Source: Sulfurospirillum diekertiae
GTDB lineage: Bacteria; Campylobacterota; Campylobacteria; Campylobacterales; Sulfurospirillaceae
Direction of reading: 5' to 3'
Length of the DNA: 64,000 nt
Assembly: GCF_011769985.2 (NCBI RefSeq)
Contig: NZ_CP039734.2
Span: forward strand, 62,001 to 126,000
Made by a program: the position numbers and the translations under genes. The notes under the pieces are model-generated. The model made no database searches. It was not told where the DNA came from and saw nothing but the letters and a program-made list of their open reading frames with translations. Positions 16,139-34,233 of the stretch are shown piece after piece. Each line of letters starts with the position of its first letter. The first letter of the stretch is position 1.

Positions 16139-16214
16139 GGTCGCGTAGCTCAGTTGGTAGAGCACTACCTTGACATGGTAGTGGTCGGAGGTTCGAATCC
16201 TCTCGTGGCCACCA
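16139..16214 (+). tRNA. tRNA-Val (anticodon GAC)
   Basis: A 76-nt cloverleaf read by eye. The acceptor arm GGTCGCG pairs with CGTGGCC (T-G and G-T wobbles), with A then an encoded CCA at 16212-16214. The D arm contains AGCTCAGTTGGTAGAGC. The anticodon arm CTACC-TTGACAT-GGTAG gives anticodon GAC (valine codons GTC/GTT). The T arm contains GGTTCGAATCC. It sits alone between lspA and thrS. Confidence 0.95.
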
Positions 16215-16268
16215 TATTTTTTGTTCTCCCGTCTGTTTGGGAGTTCATACAAGTAAAAGGATCTTATT

Positions 16269-18086
16269 ATGATGAATGATGTTATAGCCTATAAAGAAGG
16301 TGCTCTCGTCATTGACACCCAAACTGCTGCTGCCTCCTCAAAGACTTACGAAGACAAAATCTTATTTGATAATTCAAAAGATGCTCTTGAAGTAATCCGT
16401 CACTCATGTGCACATTTAATGGCTCAAGCGATTAAAGCATTATATAAAGATGCACAATTTTTTGTTGGACCTGTCATTGAAGACGGTTTTTATTATGATT
16501 TTCGTGTTAATGAAAAGATTGGTGATGCTGATCTTAAAGAGATTGAAAAAAAGATGGCAGAGCTTGCTACTGCTAAGTTGCCAATTGAGAAGATTTATAC
16601 GACTAAAACGGCTGTTATTAAACGTTTTGAACATGACAATCTTAAACAAGAAGTTTTGCTAAGAATCCCTGATGGTGAAGTATCTATCTATAAACAAGGG
16701 GATTTTGAAGATTTATGCCGTGGACCTCACGTTCCCAATACTAAATATCTTAGATTTTTTAAACTGATTAAAGTTGCAGGTGCCTATCTTGGTGGTGATG
16801 AGAAACGTGAAATGCTAACACGTATTTACGGTATAGCTTTTGCAGATAAAGAGAGCCTCAAAGATTATATTACTATGATTGAAGAAGCAAAAAAGAGAGA
16901 TCATCGCAAAATCGGTAATGAACTTAAGCTCTTTACCTTTGATGATGAAGTAGGTGCAGGTCTTCCAATTTGGTTACCCAATGGTGGCAAATTAAGAAGT
17001 AAGTTGGAGCAACTCCTTTTTAAAGCACATCGCAAGCGAGGTTATTTACCTGTAAGAGGGCCAGAACTTCTAAAATCTGATGCATGGAAAATTAGTGGTC
17101 ACTACCAGAATTATGGTGAGAATATGTATTTCACTGTCATTGATGAGTCTGAATATGGCATTAAACCAATGAACTGTTTAGGGCATATTAAAGTATTTCA
17201 AAGTGAAGTGAGAAGTTACCGCGATTTACCACTTAAATTTTTTGAATACGGTGTTGTACATCGTCATGAAAAAAGCGGTGTACTCCATGGGCTATTCCGC
17301 GTGCGTGAATTTACTCAAGATGATGCTCACATTTTCTGTACACCGGATCAAATTAAAGAAAATGTTATAGAAATTTTAAGTTTTGTCGATTCTATTATGA
17401 AAACATTTGGATTTAAGTATGAGATGGAAATTTCGACTCGCCCTGAGAAATCAATTGGTGATGAAAAATACTGGGAGGCAGCAACGGAAGGCTTAAAGAA
17501 TGCACTTGATGAAAACGGCATTCATTATGGCATTGATGAAGGTGGTGGAGCTTTTTATGGCCCTAAAATTGACATTAAGATTACCGATGCGCTTAAACGT
17601 AAATGGCAATGTGGAACCATTCAAGTTGATTTTAATTTGCCAGAGCGTTTTGATATTTCCTACATTGATGCAAACAATGAACATGCACGTCCAGTCATGC
17701 TACATCGTGCAATTTTGGGTTCATTTGAGCGTTTTATTGGTATTTTGATTGAACATACATCGGGAGAATTTCCATTTTTCCTTGCACCAACGCAAGCCGT
17801 GATTATTCCAATCTCAGATGCACATTTGGCTTATGCTAAAACATTAGCAAATGAACTTATGGTTGAAGAAATTGATGTAGAAGTCTCTTCCAAAAATGAG
17901 AGCCTCAATAAACGCATTCGCAATGCAGAAACGATGCGCGTGCCAATGATTTTGGTCATTGGTGATGCCGAAGTTGAAGGACAAAGTGTTGCCGTAAGAG
18001 ATAGACGCGAAAGAACACAGTATAATTTGACTAAAGAAGCATTAATATCAAAAATGAAGGAGAAACTTAGTGAGGTACACTTTTGA
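16269..18086 (+). CDS. thrS: Threonyl-tRNA synthetase (no TGS domain)
   Basis: A 605-residue class II synthetase. The N-terminal TGS domain of the E. coli enzyme is absent: only about 40 residues precede the editing domain motif [10 protein letters not shown]. Catalytic motifs are present: the zinc-site region KPMNCLGH, motif 2 [17 protein letters not shown], and motif 3 [13 protein letters not shown], followed by an anticodon-binding domain. Two ATGs in tandem (16269 and 16272) are possible starts. The stop overlaps the TTG start of infC by 4 nt. Confidence 0.95.
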
Positions 18087-28535: not shown

Positions 28536-29726
28536 CTAAAGCGTATTTTTAAAGACAACCACAAGTCCCCACGCGAGAAAAACCAATGCCCAAATAATCG
28601 TAATGCCAACCGTAGCATTTGCGAGTTTTGTCACGGTACCATCTGCCGTATAGAGTCCTTTGGTGCGTCCTGCTCTCCACGCTAAAGTCAGCATAAATCC
28701 AACGCCCGTAAATCCAACACAGACAAACGTTGAGAGGAACATAATGACCGTTGGCCAGTCGATGTTCATTGGATAATCGTAGATACTATAACCGTATTTG
28801 CTCATGATATTCATACGAATCACTTCTCGGAGTGTTGAAATCAAGAGTGCTGTAACCACTAAAACAAGGGTTGTGATGTAGCTATTGCTCTCTTTGATGA
28901 CCATGAAAAGTAAAATAAGAACAAATAGTACAATGGCAAGCACCAATGGATTGAAGAGCATATTGAGTGTAAGTACCCACGCGGCAAAAAGAACAGCACT
29001 AATGAGCAATCCTACGATGGCTACTTTTTTACCAAGGTTTTTCACAAACGCAAGATACTCAGCGGTATACCCATCACATTTTGAGGTGTAATCCACGTAA
29101 TTGAGCAAAAAGATACCTGTAACGGGGGCACTAAGACTAACCATGAACGCTAAGCGAAGAATATCAATGTGTAAAACCGTTCCTGATGTATCGACTACGC
29201 CATTAGGTGCGTACCAATTCATCCATTGTTCGGGTTGAATGGATTCATTTGCAAACGCGTGCATCAAAACACCTGCACCAATGAATGCAACAAAAGAGAC
29301 GATGCCTATGATCCCTGCTATCGGTGAGTTGTTTCTATTGGCATAGTAAAACCAATACCAAAGAGAGTAGGCCAAAATTAGAATGTAGATGAATGCAACG
29401 ACCCAAAGACCGGAGATGGTGTTTGTGACGTACCAGTTAGCATCGTAAATGACTTGCGTGAATAAAAGAGGCGCTACGCCTAAAACAATCAGTAAAGAGA
29501 CACTAATTTTCGCAACTTGTGTCATATGAGTGCTCAATTTTTTCCAGTTTTCATCAACGGCTTTTTGAGCAGAACCTATCAATGCAAGAGGAATACTTCC
29601 TAATGCTAAAAGCACAAAGGCAATATGCAATGCCCATGTTAAAATATACAATGCTTGAAATACAATAGGGTAAAATGGTACGCCAGCAGGATCGCGTAGC
29701 GTGTTCAAAACAAGACCGATATCCAT
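28536..29726 (-). CDS. Membrane subunit II of a cytochrome bd-like oxidoreductase
   Basis: A 396-residue polytopic protein with about nine hydrophobic helices and no heme-c motif. The start ATG 29726 (MDIGLVLNTLRDPAGVPFYP) is chosen over one 10 codons upstream because GAGGAAAA lies just ahead of it. It follows the CydA-like gene by 13 nt, in the position of cydB, but resembles CydB only weakly; helices look internally repeated. It probably partners the upstream heme subunit. Classification is by context and topology. Confidence 0.6.
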   Translation of the reverse strand: MDIGLVLNTLRDPAGVPFYPIVFQALYILTWALHIAFVLLALGSIPLALIGSAQKAVDENWKKLSTHMTQVAKISVSLLIVLGVAPLLFTQVIYDANWYVTNTISGLWVVAFIYILILAYSLWYWFYYANRNNSPIAGIIGIVSFVAFIGAGVLMHAFANESIQPEQWMNWYAPNGVVDTSGTVLHIDILRLAFMVSLSAPVTGIFLLNYVDYTSKCDGYTAEYLAFVKNLGKKVAIVGLLISAVLFAAWVLTLNMLFNPLVLAIVLFVLILLFMVIKESNSYITTLVLVVTALLISTLREVIRMNIMSKYGYSIYDYPMNIDWPTVIMFLSTFVCVGFTGVGFMLTLAWRAGRTKGLYTADGTVTKLANATVGITIIWALVFLAWGLVVVFKNTL

Positions 29727-29739
29727 AGTTTTCCTCCTC

Positions 29740-31074
29740 TTAATTTTGCGTAGCAAGCCAAGCTGCTAGCGCTTTTGTTTCATCCGTTGGTAGTTTAATC
29801 GGTGGGATATAACTACGAACTCCAGCTGCTACAACATCCGTCAATATGGTCTCAATCGTAGCAGTATCCATTTGTGGGAATCTATCGGGTAATGGCCTAA
29901 ACTTAGCCCCTTTTTCCAAAGAGTGGCAGTTTGAACAGGCAATCTTAGCGATGAGCTTTCCTGCTTCAAGTTGATTTTCAGGCGTGATGGTTCTAAGATG
30001 ATCGGGAACGAATGGGTCTAGTTTTAATAAACCTTTTTCTGCCACAAGTGCCATTTCAGATTTAACATGTTTACCTGGAACATCGCGGGCAATCAGCTGG
30101 TTACTATAGATGTAACGACCTGCAACATAAGGCTTACGCATACTTTCACGCATTTTTTCACCAGGCCAAACACCAATCACACCAATCACAAGCATCATTA
30201 CAACGGCTAAAACGGTATTGATGGAGCGAGGAAGTGCAAAGGCTAAAATTAAATAAAGTGCAATAATGCTGACCACAATAATACGCGTCATGCCATCACG
30301 TGCCCATAAAACATCGTGGAAAAGATCCCATGCACTTTGAGGCAATGTTTGGATATACCATAAGAAAGACATCATCACCGTAAATCCACCAATCATACCA
30401 ATAACAGCCAGCTTACGTGTTAGTTCAATTCTGAGTTCTTTTTCTTTGAGACTGCTGCTAATGATGAAGCCAATGATGGCGGACATTACAATCATAAAGC
30501 CGATACGTAAGAACATATGAGGGAAGGTATTGATGCCAAAGAATGCATCACTGGCTGATCCTGTTTGATACCAGGCTTCTGTTCCTGGCCACATCATGAA
30601 GCTGATGATACCGATAATAAGGAAAAGTGTTGAAACGGAAGCCAGCGCAAACATATAGGTCAGTTTAAGATGTGTCTTGCGATCAATTTTTCCAATGGTG
30701 TAAATCAGTGTAAAGACGCCAATGACTTCCACAATAAAGAAAACCCATTCGGTTGCCCATACCCACACAAAGTTATGAATCAGCGCACTAATACCTCTTG
30801 GGCTTGCTGCTGTGGCAGTATACCAAATACCAGGTCCCGTAATAGAACCAATCACATAAGAGAAAATAACCAAGAACATACCATACTTTTTCATATAGTC
30901 ATAAAGCTCTGGTCTATCTTCTTTGTACGCTTTGTGTGCTAAAAAAGCAAACAATAAAGCGGCACCCACAGACGTATGTGACGCCATAATGTGAATACTG
31001 CCCGTAATCCCCATCAGCCAAGCTGAACCAATTTGCGGAAAATAGAATAGAGGATATAATCCAATGTATTCCAC
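29740..31074 (-). CDS. CydA-like quinol-oxidase-type subunit with fused C-terminal cytochrome c
   Basis: A 444-residue protein. Residues 1-310 or so hold about eight to nine helices reminiscent of CydA: TGSIHIMASHTSVG near 25 (place of the b595 ligand His), two Glu in ATEWVFFIVE near 110, and FPHMFLRIGF near 190 (place of the b558 ligand His). The quinol-binding Q-loop is missing. Residues about 360-444 form a cytochrome c domain with heme motif CSNCH. The closest known group is the divergent bd superfamily branch with attached cytochrome c (called OR-C). Start is GTG 31074, with AAGGAGG 6 nt ahead. Confidence 0.7.
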   Translation of the reverse strand: MEYIGLYPLFYFPQIGSAWLMGITGSIHIMASHTSVGAALLFAFLAHKAYKEDRPELYDYMKKYGMFLVIFSYVIGSITGPGIWYTATAASPRGISALIHNFVWVWATEWVFFIVEVIGVFTLIYTIGKIDRKTHLKLTYMFALASVSTLFLIIGIISFMMWPGTEAWYQTGSASDAFFGINTFPHMFLRIGFMIVMSAIIGFIISSSLKEKELRIELTRKLAVIGMIGGFTVMMSFLWYIQTLPQSAWDLFHDVLWARDGMTRIIVVSIIALYLILAFALPRSINTVLAVVMMLVIGVIGVWPGEKMRESMRKPYVAGRYIYSNQLIARDVPGKHVKSEMALVAEKGLLKLDPFVPDHLRTITPENQLEAGKLIAKIACSNCHSLEKGAKFRPLPDRFPQMDTATIETILTDVVAAGVRSYIPPIKLPTDETKALAAWLATQN

Positions 31075-31200
31075 CTAACACCTCCTTAAGATTTTTAAAA
31101 TGGTTTGTAAAAGTAGAGCCTCTTCATACGTATTATTTTGTGACATAACGTTGCACCAAGAGGGGAGGTGTCTCTGCCTTTGCAAACCATTTTTATTATT
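31075..31200 (-). promoter_or_regulatory. Candidate structured leader of the bd-like operon with anti-Shine-Dalgarno bulge
   Basis: AAAATGGTTTG (31097-31107) pairs perfectly with CAAACCATTTT (31183-31193). Inside, AGAG (31115-31118)/CTCT (31172-31175) and CCTCTT (31119-31124)/AAGAGG (31158-31163) continue the stem. The last two helices are contiguous on one side and separated on the other by exactly 8 nt, GGAGGTGT (31164-31171, plus sense). That bulge is the perfect complement of ACACCTCC at 31078-31085, which is the GGAGGTGT Shine-Dalgarno of the minus-strand gene. No known riboswitch class is recognised. Plus-strand wobble pairs leave the transcribed strand open. Confidence 0.5.
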
Positions 31201-31209
31201 ACATGTAAG
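31198..31209. repeat. TACATGTA palindrome, copy 11 (two mismatches)
   Basis: ATTACATGTAAG, just upstream of the candidate leader stem of the bd-like operon. Confidence 0.55.
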
Positions 31210-31294
31210 AATGTGCTTGTGGTTAACGCAGAAAAAGCTTAGTATTTAAGCCTTGTTTGAGTAGAATTTTCTTGCGTTGCAACAAGCACGTTGT

Positions 31295-31333
31295 GTTTAT
31301 CCGATGTGGGTTTGGCGATCAACTCGGGTAAAC
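31295..31333. repeat. Stem-forming inverted repeat
   Basis: GTTTATCCGA (31295-31304) pairs with TCGGGTAAAC (31324-31333) over 10 bp with a single T-G wobble on the plus strand; on the minus strand that pair would be a C-A mismatch. Confidence 0.45.
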
Positions 31334-31469
31334 AGCACTTCAAAACTAAAAGTTTCCTTGCATAAAACAATGACATATCAGTGTTAATTTAATGTTAAAT
31401 TTAGAGATAGTAAGAAAATGGAAGAATGAAGAAGCTTATAATAGATTTTAGGCTTGAAATATAGCAGTA

Positions 31470-32207: not shown

Positions 32208-33388
32208 GCAATCCTCACTGTCGTTCCCTCGTGTAGTTTAGAGTCGATGCTTACATGTAAAGTATACTCTTTGGCAATAGCTGCTACGATACTAAGTCCT
32301 ATACCAAACCCTCCGACCGTATGATCAAACCTCACGTAGCGTTCAAAGGCTTGATTGATTTTTTTGGTTTCGATGCCTCTTCCACTATCACTGATTTCAA
32401 TGTATTCAGGTGTTAAAAGCACATGAATCGTTCCCCCAATTTTATTGTACTTGATAGCATTAGAGAGAATATTATCAATCAGTTTAGCAATTTTCTTACG
32501 ATCTATCATCAAAAAAACATTTTCTTCAAGTGTAGACGTTAAAGTAAGTTTTTTTGATTCAATGAGAAGTGAAAAATACTCCAATCGCTCTTCAATGATA
32601 ACTTTAAGATCGACCTCTTCATCATGAGAAATGATGTGATGTGAAAGCACTAAATAGGTAAGATCATCGTAAAGATTTGAGATGGTTTTAGATGCGATCG
32701 TAATGCGCTTTATCTTTTTTGCCAAACTTTCATCTAATGCCGTAAGCTCAATCATCTCAATATTAGAGAGAATTGTATTGACAGGCGTGTTCAGTTCATG
32801 GGTTGTGTCTTTAATGAAGCGATCTAAGAGCGTAATGGTGTCTCTCATCGGACGAAGAAGAAGAGCCAGCAAAAAATAACCAATAACAATCAAAATACCA
32901 AAAATAATGGCACCATACGTCAAAAGCTTACGGAAAACTTTTTTCTCCCATGAAAGTGGTGCATCGATTTCAATCACAATATACCGAGCACCCAAATAAT
33001 AAGATTCTAGCTCTTTAACAAAGTAGATATGATTTCTTTTGAGGTAAATATCTTCGTAAAGATTGACTTTATTGGTACTCAATGTTGAAAAAATTTGTTT
33101 AAGACTACTGTCGTAAATAGCAGAATTAAATCGTTCATCTCTTGGATACGTTTGCTCTTTTCCAAGGTTTACATGTAAAGATTTGAGACGTGCAATGTGC
33201 TCATTTGTAAGATTAGAGAGAGCTTCTCTTTGATTCTGAAGCATTAAATCACGCTCTAAACCATAGTATAAAAAAGCTACAAATCCTAAAATTAGGAGTG
33301 CTAAAAAGGCGTAGAGAAATAGAAACGATCGAAGCGTTTTTTTCTCACGCGAGCGTAAATTTATATCCCAGTTTTTTAATACTAACAA
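32201..33388 (-). CDS. Sensor histidine kinase
   Basis: A 395-residue kinase. A helix (about 22-42), a 110-residue periplasmic domain and a second helix (about 158-178) precede the H-box TTHELNTPVNTILSN (His near 200). The N-box is DNILSNAIKYN, and G-boxes are DSGRGIETKK and GGFGIGLSIV. The start chosen is TTG 33388, because GGAAGGATC sits just ahead; it lies within the regulator gene and the frame upstream has no site. Contains two palindrome copies. Confidence 0.88.
   Translation of the reverse strand: MLVLKNWDINLRSREKKTLRSFLFLYAFLALLILGFVAFLYYGLERDLMLQNQREALSNLTNEHIARLKSLHVNLGKEQTYPRDERFNSAIYDSSLKQIFSTLSTNKVNLYEDIYLKRNHIYFVKELESYYLGARYIVIEIDAPLSWEKKVFRKLLTYGAIIFGILIVIGYFLLALLLRPMRDTITLLDRFIKDTTHELNTPVNTILSNIEMIELTALDESLAKKIKRITIASKTISNLYDDLTYLVLSHHIISHDEEVDLKVIIEERLEYFSLLIESKKLTLTSTLEENVFLMIDRKKIAKLIDNILSNAIKYNKIGGTIHVLLTPEYIEISDSGRGIETKKINQAFERYVRFDHTVGGFGIGLSIVAAIAKEYTLHVSIDSKLHEGTTVRIAW
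32250..32261. repeat. TACATGTA palindrome, copy 12 (one mismatch)
   Basis: CTTACATGTAAA in the histidine kinase gene, read as Leu-His-Val-Ser on the minus strand. Confidence 0.65.
33168..33179. repeat. TTTACATGTAAA palindrome, copy 13
   Basis: Perfect copy in the histidine kinase gene, read as Leu-His-Val-Asn on the minus strand. Confidence 0.8.
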
Positions 33389-34019
33389 TACGATCCTTCC
33401 CCATAATTTTACGAAGATTTTTGATGTAAGTACGCAGTGTATCGTCACTACCTTGTTCGTCGTATTCCCACAAATGTGCCATAATCATCTCATGGCTGAT
33501 GATTTCATTTTTCTTTTGTAAAAAGAGTTTGAGTAATTTTGCTTCTTTGTTTTGGAGTTGTACTACTTTGTGATTGACTAACAGTTGGTTATTAAGTGGG
33601 TCATACTCAATACCTTCATCAATGCAAATTTTAGGACTTTGAGTATGAAAGAACTCACGTTTTAAAATAGTTTCGATACGAAAGAGAAGCTCTTTAAGCA
33701 CGAAGGGTTTGCGTAAGTAATCATCGCAACCACTTTCATAACCATGTTCTAAGTCTTCAATAGCATTTAGGGATGTCAAAAAAATGGCAGGGGTTGTATT
33801 ATTTTCACGGCGTACGCGTTTAAGGAGTTGAAATCCATTTAAAGAGGGAACATTGACATCCAGTAAAAAGAGGTCATACTGATGTTCATATATCAGTTCT
33901 TCTGCGGCTTCACCATCGTAGACAGGCGTAACATGATAGCCTTTAGACTCCAAAAACTCACAGACTGTTTCGCTCAGATTGGTATCGTCTTCCAAAAGAA
34001 GAAGTCTAGTTTTGGGCAT
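33345..34019 (-). CDS. OmpR-family response regulator
   Basis: A 224-residue regulator: receiver domain with LLLLEDD at the start, phospho-Asp in FLLDVNVPS near residue 51, and KPF near 101, then a winged-helix DNA-binding domain ending DTLRTYIKNLRKIMGKDRI. ATG 34019 (MPKTRLLLLEDD) is preferred over an upstream in-frame ATG whose added residues are only charged. It overlaps the upstream small periplasmic gene by 14 nt. A close paralogue lies at 53049-53714. Confidence 0.9.
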   Translation of the reverse strand: MPKTRLLLLEDDTNLSETVCEFLESKGYHVTPVYDGEAAEELIYEHQYDLFLLDVNVPSLNGFQLLKRVRRENNTTPAIFLTSLNAIEDLEHGYESGCDDYLRKPFVLKELLFRIETILKREFFHTQSPKICIDEGIEYDPLNNQLLVNHKVVQLQNKEAKLLKLFLQKKNEIISHEMIMAHLWEYDEQGSDDTLRTYIKNLRKIMGKDRIVSIKKLGYKFTLA

Positions 34020-34233
34020 TGTCTCTTCTCTTTTTATCTTCATCATAGAGCGCTTTTTCTTCTTCACTCATGGTTGTTACACGTTTGTCAAGTTCTTGGT
34101 AAAAATGCTCTTCTGTCTTTTGGTCGACATAACCAATAAGCGCTATCAGCTCTTCTGTACTCATTTCACTAAAATCGGTCTTGGCAAATAAGAAACTCAT
34201 AAGAATTAAACAGCCAAAGAGCACTTTTTTCAT
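34006..34233 (-). CDS. Small periplasmic DUF1104-like protein
   Basis: A 75-residue protein: signal peptide MKKVLFGCLILMSFLFA, then a charged helical domain with FSEMSTEELIALIG and VTTMSEEEKALYDE. This fits the DUF1104 family described in Helicobacter. Position just ahead of a response regulator and kinase recalls CpxP-type periplasmic modulators of other bacteria, but there is no sequence proof. It starts only 3 nt after the lipoprotein stop. Confidence 0.65.
   Translation of the reverse strand: MKKVLFGCLILMSFLFAKTDFSEMSTEELIALIGYVDQKTEEHFYQELDKRVTTMSEEEKALYDEDKKRRDNAQN

Follow-up and report, generated by a model that had tools for sequence, protein, structure and literature searches.

This study revealed a hairpin, termed H3, upstream of the same gene in eight Sulfurospirillum genomes, all of one genus. 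To judge from sequence comparison, it is a real structure that evolution has kept folded. H3 occupies positions 31097-31193 of the minus strand in the window, the 64,000-nucleotide stretch of Sulfurospirillum diekertiae DNA analyzed here. The gene that follows (29740-31074, minus strand) encodes a divergent cytochrome bd subunit I-like protein of 444 aa with a C-terminal cytochrome c domain, and is referred to below as the oxidase gene. The best reading of H3 is that of a clade-specific leader hairpin near the Shine-Dalgarno sequence (SD), with the strand not settled. Rather than a metabolite riboswitch, it is probably an element that controls translation locally. We tentatively propose that H3 could control translation of the oxidase in cis, with a role for an unpaired bulge that is complementary to the SD. 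The hairpin, its covariation, its position, the SD complement in seven of the eight genomes and the promoter layout are directly supported, whereas passage of the mRNA through H3, an action on translation, the use of the bulge and the agent that would open the stem are what we infer from them.

Structure and conservation of hairpin H3

H3 comprises a lower stem, a one-sided bulge of 8 nt, an inner helix and an apical loop with the conserved sequence ATGTCAC.AAAATAA. Its outer stem is formed by AAAATGGTTTG (31097-31107) and CAAACCATTTT (31183-31193). It is followed by an AGAG/CTCT helix (31115-31118 with 31172-31175) and by the inner helix CCTCTT/AAGAGG (31119-31124 with 31158-31163). The bulge, ACACCUCC, is located at 31164-31171 and reads GGAGGTGT on the plus strand and 5'-ACACCTCC-3' on the minus strand. 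An 11-bp stem, both helices and the 8-nt bulge had been described in an earlier, sequence-only reading of this DNA, and all of its coordinates proved exact when the sequence was re-read. The arms are bounded by A5/T5 on both sides, and a genome-wide search found H3 as a single copy, so that a repeat or mobile element was rejected. On the minus strand, the predicted fold reaches -33.6 kcal/mol with a z-score of -7.1, and none of 200 shuffles folded as well; on the plus strand, the z-score is -4.9 and the inner fold is partly different. In raw energy, H3 comes only 28th among 6390 windows of 111 nt, since coding stretches rich in GC also fold well. The stems of the sister genomes are longer than that of the window, with 24 uninterrupted pairs below the bulge in L043.

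Covariation in relatives, a check proposed along with the earlier description, was found. Changes from one Watson-Crick pair to another occur in 9 of the 24 lower-stem pairs across the eight genomes. In a set of seven genomes, seven pairs show changes on both sides, against 2.6 expected in shuffles (0/500 shuffles reach seven), and the signal vanishes when the partner is slid by 1-3 columns. A covariance model, R1, was built from six close genomes, leaving out L086 and L044. It recovered these two most diverged members with E-values of 3e-18 for L086 and 7e-8 for L044, although the score of the latter owes part to its identical SD flank. Given this covariation and the recovery of diverged members, H3 therefore appears to be a maintained structure, with palindrome correction at the DNA level as an alternative cause. 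The stem length and the distance to the SD are held in all eight genomes despite sequence divergence. The unpaired blocks ACCTCC, in the bulge, and ATGTCAC.AAAATAA are common to seven genomes and kept partly in L044. As in cis-regulatory leaders generally, a covarying helix is found at a fixed place between promoter and SD. The model search of relatives placed H3 at one site per genome, before one gene and in one clade. Two further candidates were rejected. An upstream open reading frame in the hairpin (ATG at 31190, 31 aa) is not conserved, L005 and L086 lacking this ATG. The sequence TTTGGCGATC had been considered as an element repeated in the genome, but the copies inspected seem to be parts of protein-coding genes.

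Promoter, leader and genes of the oxidase locus

With regard to transcription of the minus strand, a putative response-regulator-type promoter was identified at about 31367-31398. It consists of the direct repeat TTAACA-N5-TTAACA (31398-31382), a spacer of 9 nt and a -10 element. The latter is CATTGT in the window and TATTAT, CATAAT or TATAAT in relatives. The degenerate -10 of the window counts against the cis-control proposal; it would fit an activator-dependent promoter. Transcription is predicted to start at ~31360, which gives a leader of ~286 nt, in which two hairpins, H1 and H2, are predicted besides H3. Orthologs of many genera have the layout TTAACA-N5-TTAACA-N9-(-10) with its spacing unchanged, 62 to 360 nt ahead of the start codon, and ortholog leaders range from ~30 to ~300 nt; in the short-leader Sulfurospirillum species, the box lies about 67 nt from the ATG. 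The literature examined on Sulfurospirillum oxidases and RacR holds nothing on the TTAACA repeat or on this leader. The repeat is possibly a binding site of the OmpR-type regulator encoded at 33345-34067, a gene found within a few kilobases of the pair described below in many relatives.

The sequence-only reading had placed an oxygen- or heme-type enzyme downstream. This agrees with Pfam matches of the oxidase to PF01654 (E 2.6e-5) and, for the C-terminal cytochrome c domain, to PF13442 (E 5e-4), both below the curated cut-offs; a PDB search gave weak cytochrome c matches and nothing else. The second gene of the pair (28536-29726, minus strand) encodes a membrane protein of 396 aa without a Pfam match, and follows the oxidase gene in nearly all relatives examined. 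Upstream of the oxidase gene lie genes for a small cytochrome c, a 111-aa CxxCH protein, a histidine kinase and the OmpR-type response regulator. In several clades, few synonymous changes were observed within the first 21 codons of the oxidase gene, with 12/17 and 9/15 codons invariant versus roughly 0-8 elsewhere.

To our knowledge, little is known about how free-living Campylobacterota control their respiratory enzymes post-transcriptionally. In this compact locus, a maintained hairpin stands next to an exceptionally strong SD, and both are preceded by an antisense small-RNA candidate and a response-regulator-type promoter that is conserved; simple reporter tests can tell apart how an oxygen-related enzyme is controlled at the levels of transcription and of RNA.

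H3, the ribosome-binding site and rival explanations

The bulge is the exact complement of the SD of the oxidase gene, as was previously claimed, both sites having been read from the sequence. This SD (31078-31085; GGAGGTGT on the minus strand) is part of the very strong TTAAGGAGGTGTTA and precedes a GTG start codon (31072-31074, minus strand). A strong SD with a GTG start is common to all eight genomes, and the SD is identical in all of them, including one without the bulge. The bulge core ACCTCC is kept in seven of the eight. It persists in L086, though much of the apical part has been replaced there, and variation from ACAC to ATAC in the bulge preserves pairing with the SD on the minus strand alone. 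A pseudoknot that sequesters the SD would be expected to keep its complement in all members, and the core is missing in L044, the most diverged. The hairpin and the identical SD are retained in that genome without the complement (best duplex -9.7 kcal/mol, P 0.45); therefore, the complement is not essential to the role of H3 in every species. Among shuffled upstream regions, a complement as long as the 8 nt of H3 arose in 2%, a duplex as strong in 0.3% and a 6-nt version in 27%. Taken alone, the 8-nt complement would thus be a modest surprise.

In the cis-control proposal, minus-strand transcription from the response-regulator-type promoter near 31365-31398 would produce the ~286-nt 5' leader, and H3 would act in cis from the final third of this leader, in the mRNA of the cytochrome bd-like/heme-c membrane enzyme. 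The hairpin would fold before the SD is transcribed. Between the two lie 8-11 nt, and the SD is unusually strong whereas the GTG start is weak. In the default state, H3 would be folded with the SD outside it, and the ACCUCC bulge would serve as a spare anti-SD. If the A/U-rich foot of the stem came open under heat or through a helicase, a protein or an antisense RNA, the bulge could capture the SD and initiation would be lowered. As long as the stem is intact, steric constraints make such capture doubtful: the linker of 8-11 nt must span 20-26 pairs, about as far as an extended strand can reach. To open about six A/U pairs at the foot costs 6-9 kcal/mol, versus -13.0 kcal/mol gained from the SD duplex. 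The usual pseudoknot penalty is about 8 kcal/mol, a value assumed here, and with its inclusion the balance comes close to zero. Compared with the SD-open fold, one in which SD and anti-SD pair in a fully nested way is less stable by 3 kcal/mol in the window, 17 in L043 and 25 in L086. As the SD-open fold is favored and the balance of capture is near zero, the SD is probably free by default according to these models, and the bulge would act only if the stem were loosened. Of the SD-hiding pseudoknot that had been suggested, the conserved complement stands, whereas the tight linker and the energy balance speak against a ready-made design.

The earlier suggestion of a plus-strand RNA met with evidence on both sides, as the two tests of the strand disagree. 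The two plus-strand T-G wobbles that it cited in the stem, T31108/G31182 and T31114/G31176, are present. Among single-sided changes in the lower and inner stem, ten yield A-C on the minus strand (G-U on the plus strand) and three yield G-U on the minus strand (one-sided P 0.046), a count that leans toward plus. The folding z-scores lean toward minus, being more negative on that strand in seven of the eight genomes, with a tie in the window; the fold is strong on minus in every member, and the apical pairs wobble on this strand. A functional plus-strand product would be a cis-antisense RNA of ~135 nt that starts at ~31066, runs antisense over the SD and ends at H3 with UUUUUAUUAUU. In addition to the stem wobbles, it would draw on a candidate promoter with TATAAT at 31055-31060 (plus strand, inside the oxidase gene), identical in all eight genomes, and on the adjoining RNA candidate described below, which suggests nearby transcription of the plus strand. 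However, codon conservation at the gene start is equally high in short-leader clades (9/15 versus 12/17); these lack the TATAAT, and its conservation is therefore not special. Synonymous constraint over the first 21 codons was rejected as proof of a plus-strand promoter, since these control clades show the same. U5 flanks H3 on both sides, but further U residues are not conserved and the U-tail is not conserved in L044; a terminator scan found none at H3, although it admits loops of 3-8 nt only and would pass over a hairpin like this one. Considering also the z-scores and the bulge changes that keep SD pairing on the minus strand alone, we regard the antisense RNA as unlikely. CopA/CopT of plasmid R1 is an antisense-controlled leader that H3 resembles in having a long bulged stem-loop beside the translation start, potentially transcribed on both strands; unlike in CopA/CopT, the transcripts of H3 are predicted ones and its plus-strand promoter is unsupported by controls.

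It is possible, though doubtful, that H3 is a structural feature of the leader, acting in 5' stability, as an RNase III target, in ribosome standby or in insulation from antisense transcription. The SD complement would then be incidental, because pyrimidine tracts readily match an SD. The hairpin without a complement in L044 and the frequencies of 8-nt and 6-nt complements in shuffles are in line with this, as is the L018/L020/L113 lineage, where a different hairpin stands at the same distance from the SD without strong complementarity to it. The retention of ACCTCC in L086 while the adjacent loop sequence changed argues against it. Quasipalindrome correction by template switching can mimic compensatory change, and an inverted repeat kept in this way at the DNA level, or a weak bidirectional terminator, would require no regulatory RNA role. 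Such an origin would suit the A5/T5 ends of the arms and the loop of H1, which in some lineages is the reverse complement of that in others, the outcome that template switching would have. We nevertheless hold it to be very unlikely, as stem length and SD distance stay constant in eight genomes while the sequence diverges, and the minus-strand fold is strong throughout. The description of H3 as a riboswitch-like leader survives as regards a structured leader, but not as regards a metabolite riboswitch. The bulge/SD complement and the unpaired blocks shared by seven genomes could be expected of a riboswitch; however, the Rfam 15 covariance models (gathering score and E <= 5) gave two chance-level matches to eukaryotic families and no family for H3, and no conserved aptamer core was found that recurs before different genes or across lineages, the hairpin being restricted to one gene in eight genomes of one genus. 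The conserved blocks are kept only in part in L044, and the pseudoknot is energetically marginal and sterically tight. A classical riboswitch is thus unlikely, and one that senses a metabolite, redox state, metal or heme and hides the SD in a pseudoknot seems highly improbable. In the SD-sequestering pseudoknot riboswitches of the preQ1-II and SAM-II types, an unpaired SD complement likewise occurs in a leader structure near the start codon. In contrast to these, H3 has no aptamer core across genera, places 20-26 pairs between bulge and SD and has lost the complement in one member. RNA thermometers such as ROSE and fourU also have a hairpin with an anti-SD directly upstream of the start codon, but their SD is paired inside it by default, whereas here the SD lies outside H3 in the predicted fold.

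A neighboring RNA candidate on the plus strand

An additional candidate, captured by model R2, is a two-hairpin RNA on the plus strand (31262-31343), which overlaps the initial portion of the leader in antisense. Its conserved promoter, TTTAAG-N11-GAGTAGAAT (plus strand, within 31246-31343), has TATAAT in other genera. H3 is not part of this RNA and lies on the opposite side of its promoter. The same layout also precedes orthologs of the oxidase gene in other genomes, among them Sulfuricurvum/Sulfurimonas-like and Sulfurovum ones. When 298 genomes of the class were searched, 11 gave strong matches, each located shortly before an oxidase gene of this family and in antisense orientation to it. 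Two of the 11, G137 and G233, are outside the model, and their matches lie beside paralogs only about 30% identical. The second hairpin shows covariation at all 8 pairs. Plus-strand G-U cells outnumber A-C cells by 22:2 in the building set and by 25:8 in a larger, model-fitted set, where a single pair of the first hairpin, which is not formed in the Sulfurospirillum clade, accounts for seven of the eight A-C cells. The loci tested gave no Rfam match. R2 is apparently an undescribed small-RNA candidate, more widespread than H3 and better supported than the H3 finding, and it could define an RNA family of its own, new and associated with bd-like oxidases. A broader view, in which the oxidase leader would be a two-strand RNA control locus, is quite unlikely in our estimation: in several families of Campylobacterota, R2 would be nested within the leader on the opposite strand, and in one Sulfurospirillum clade the bulged hairpin H3, which may be made from both strands, would link R2 to the SD.

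The loop of the second R2 hairpin (31297-31333 in the window) is UUUGGCGA in the Sulfurospirillum clade and UCGCCAAA in L018, L022, L061 and L166, as if it had been inverted by template switching. Inverted repeats of the form GCAACGC...GCGTTGC flank the -10 element of R2 in several genera (31204-31290 in the window; about 3100-3420 in L170) and could be an operator or a leader hairpin. Elsewhere in the window, a borderline Rfam match to HPnc0260 (59.7 bits, cut-off 59) at 16139-16304 on the minus strand overlaps a plus-strand tRNA gene.
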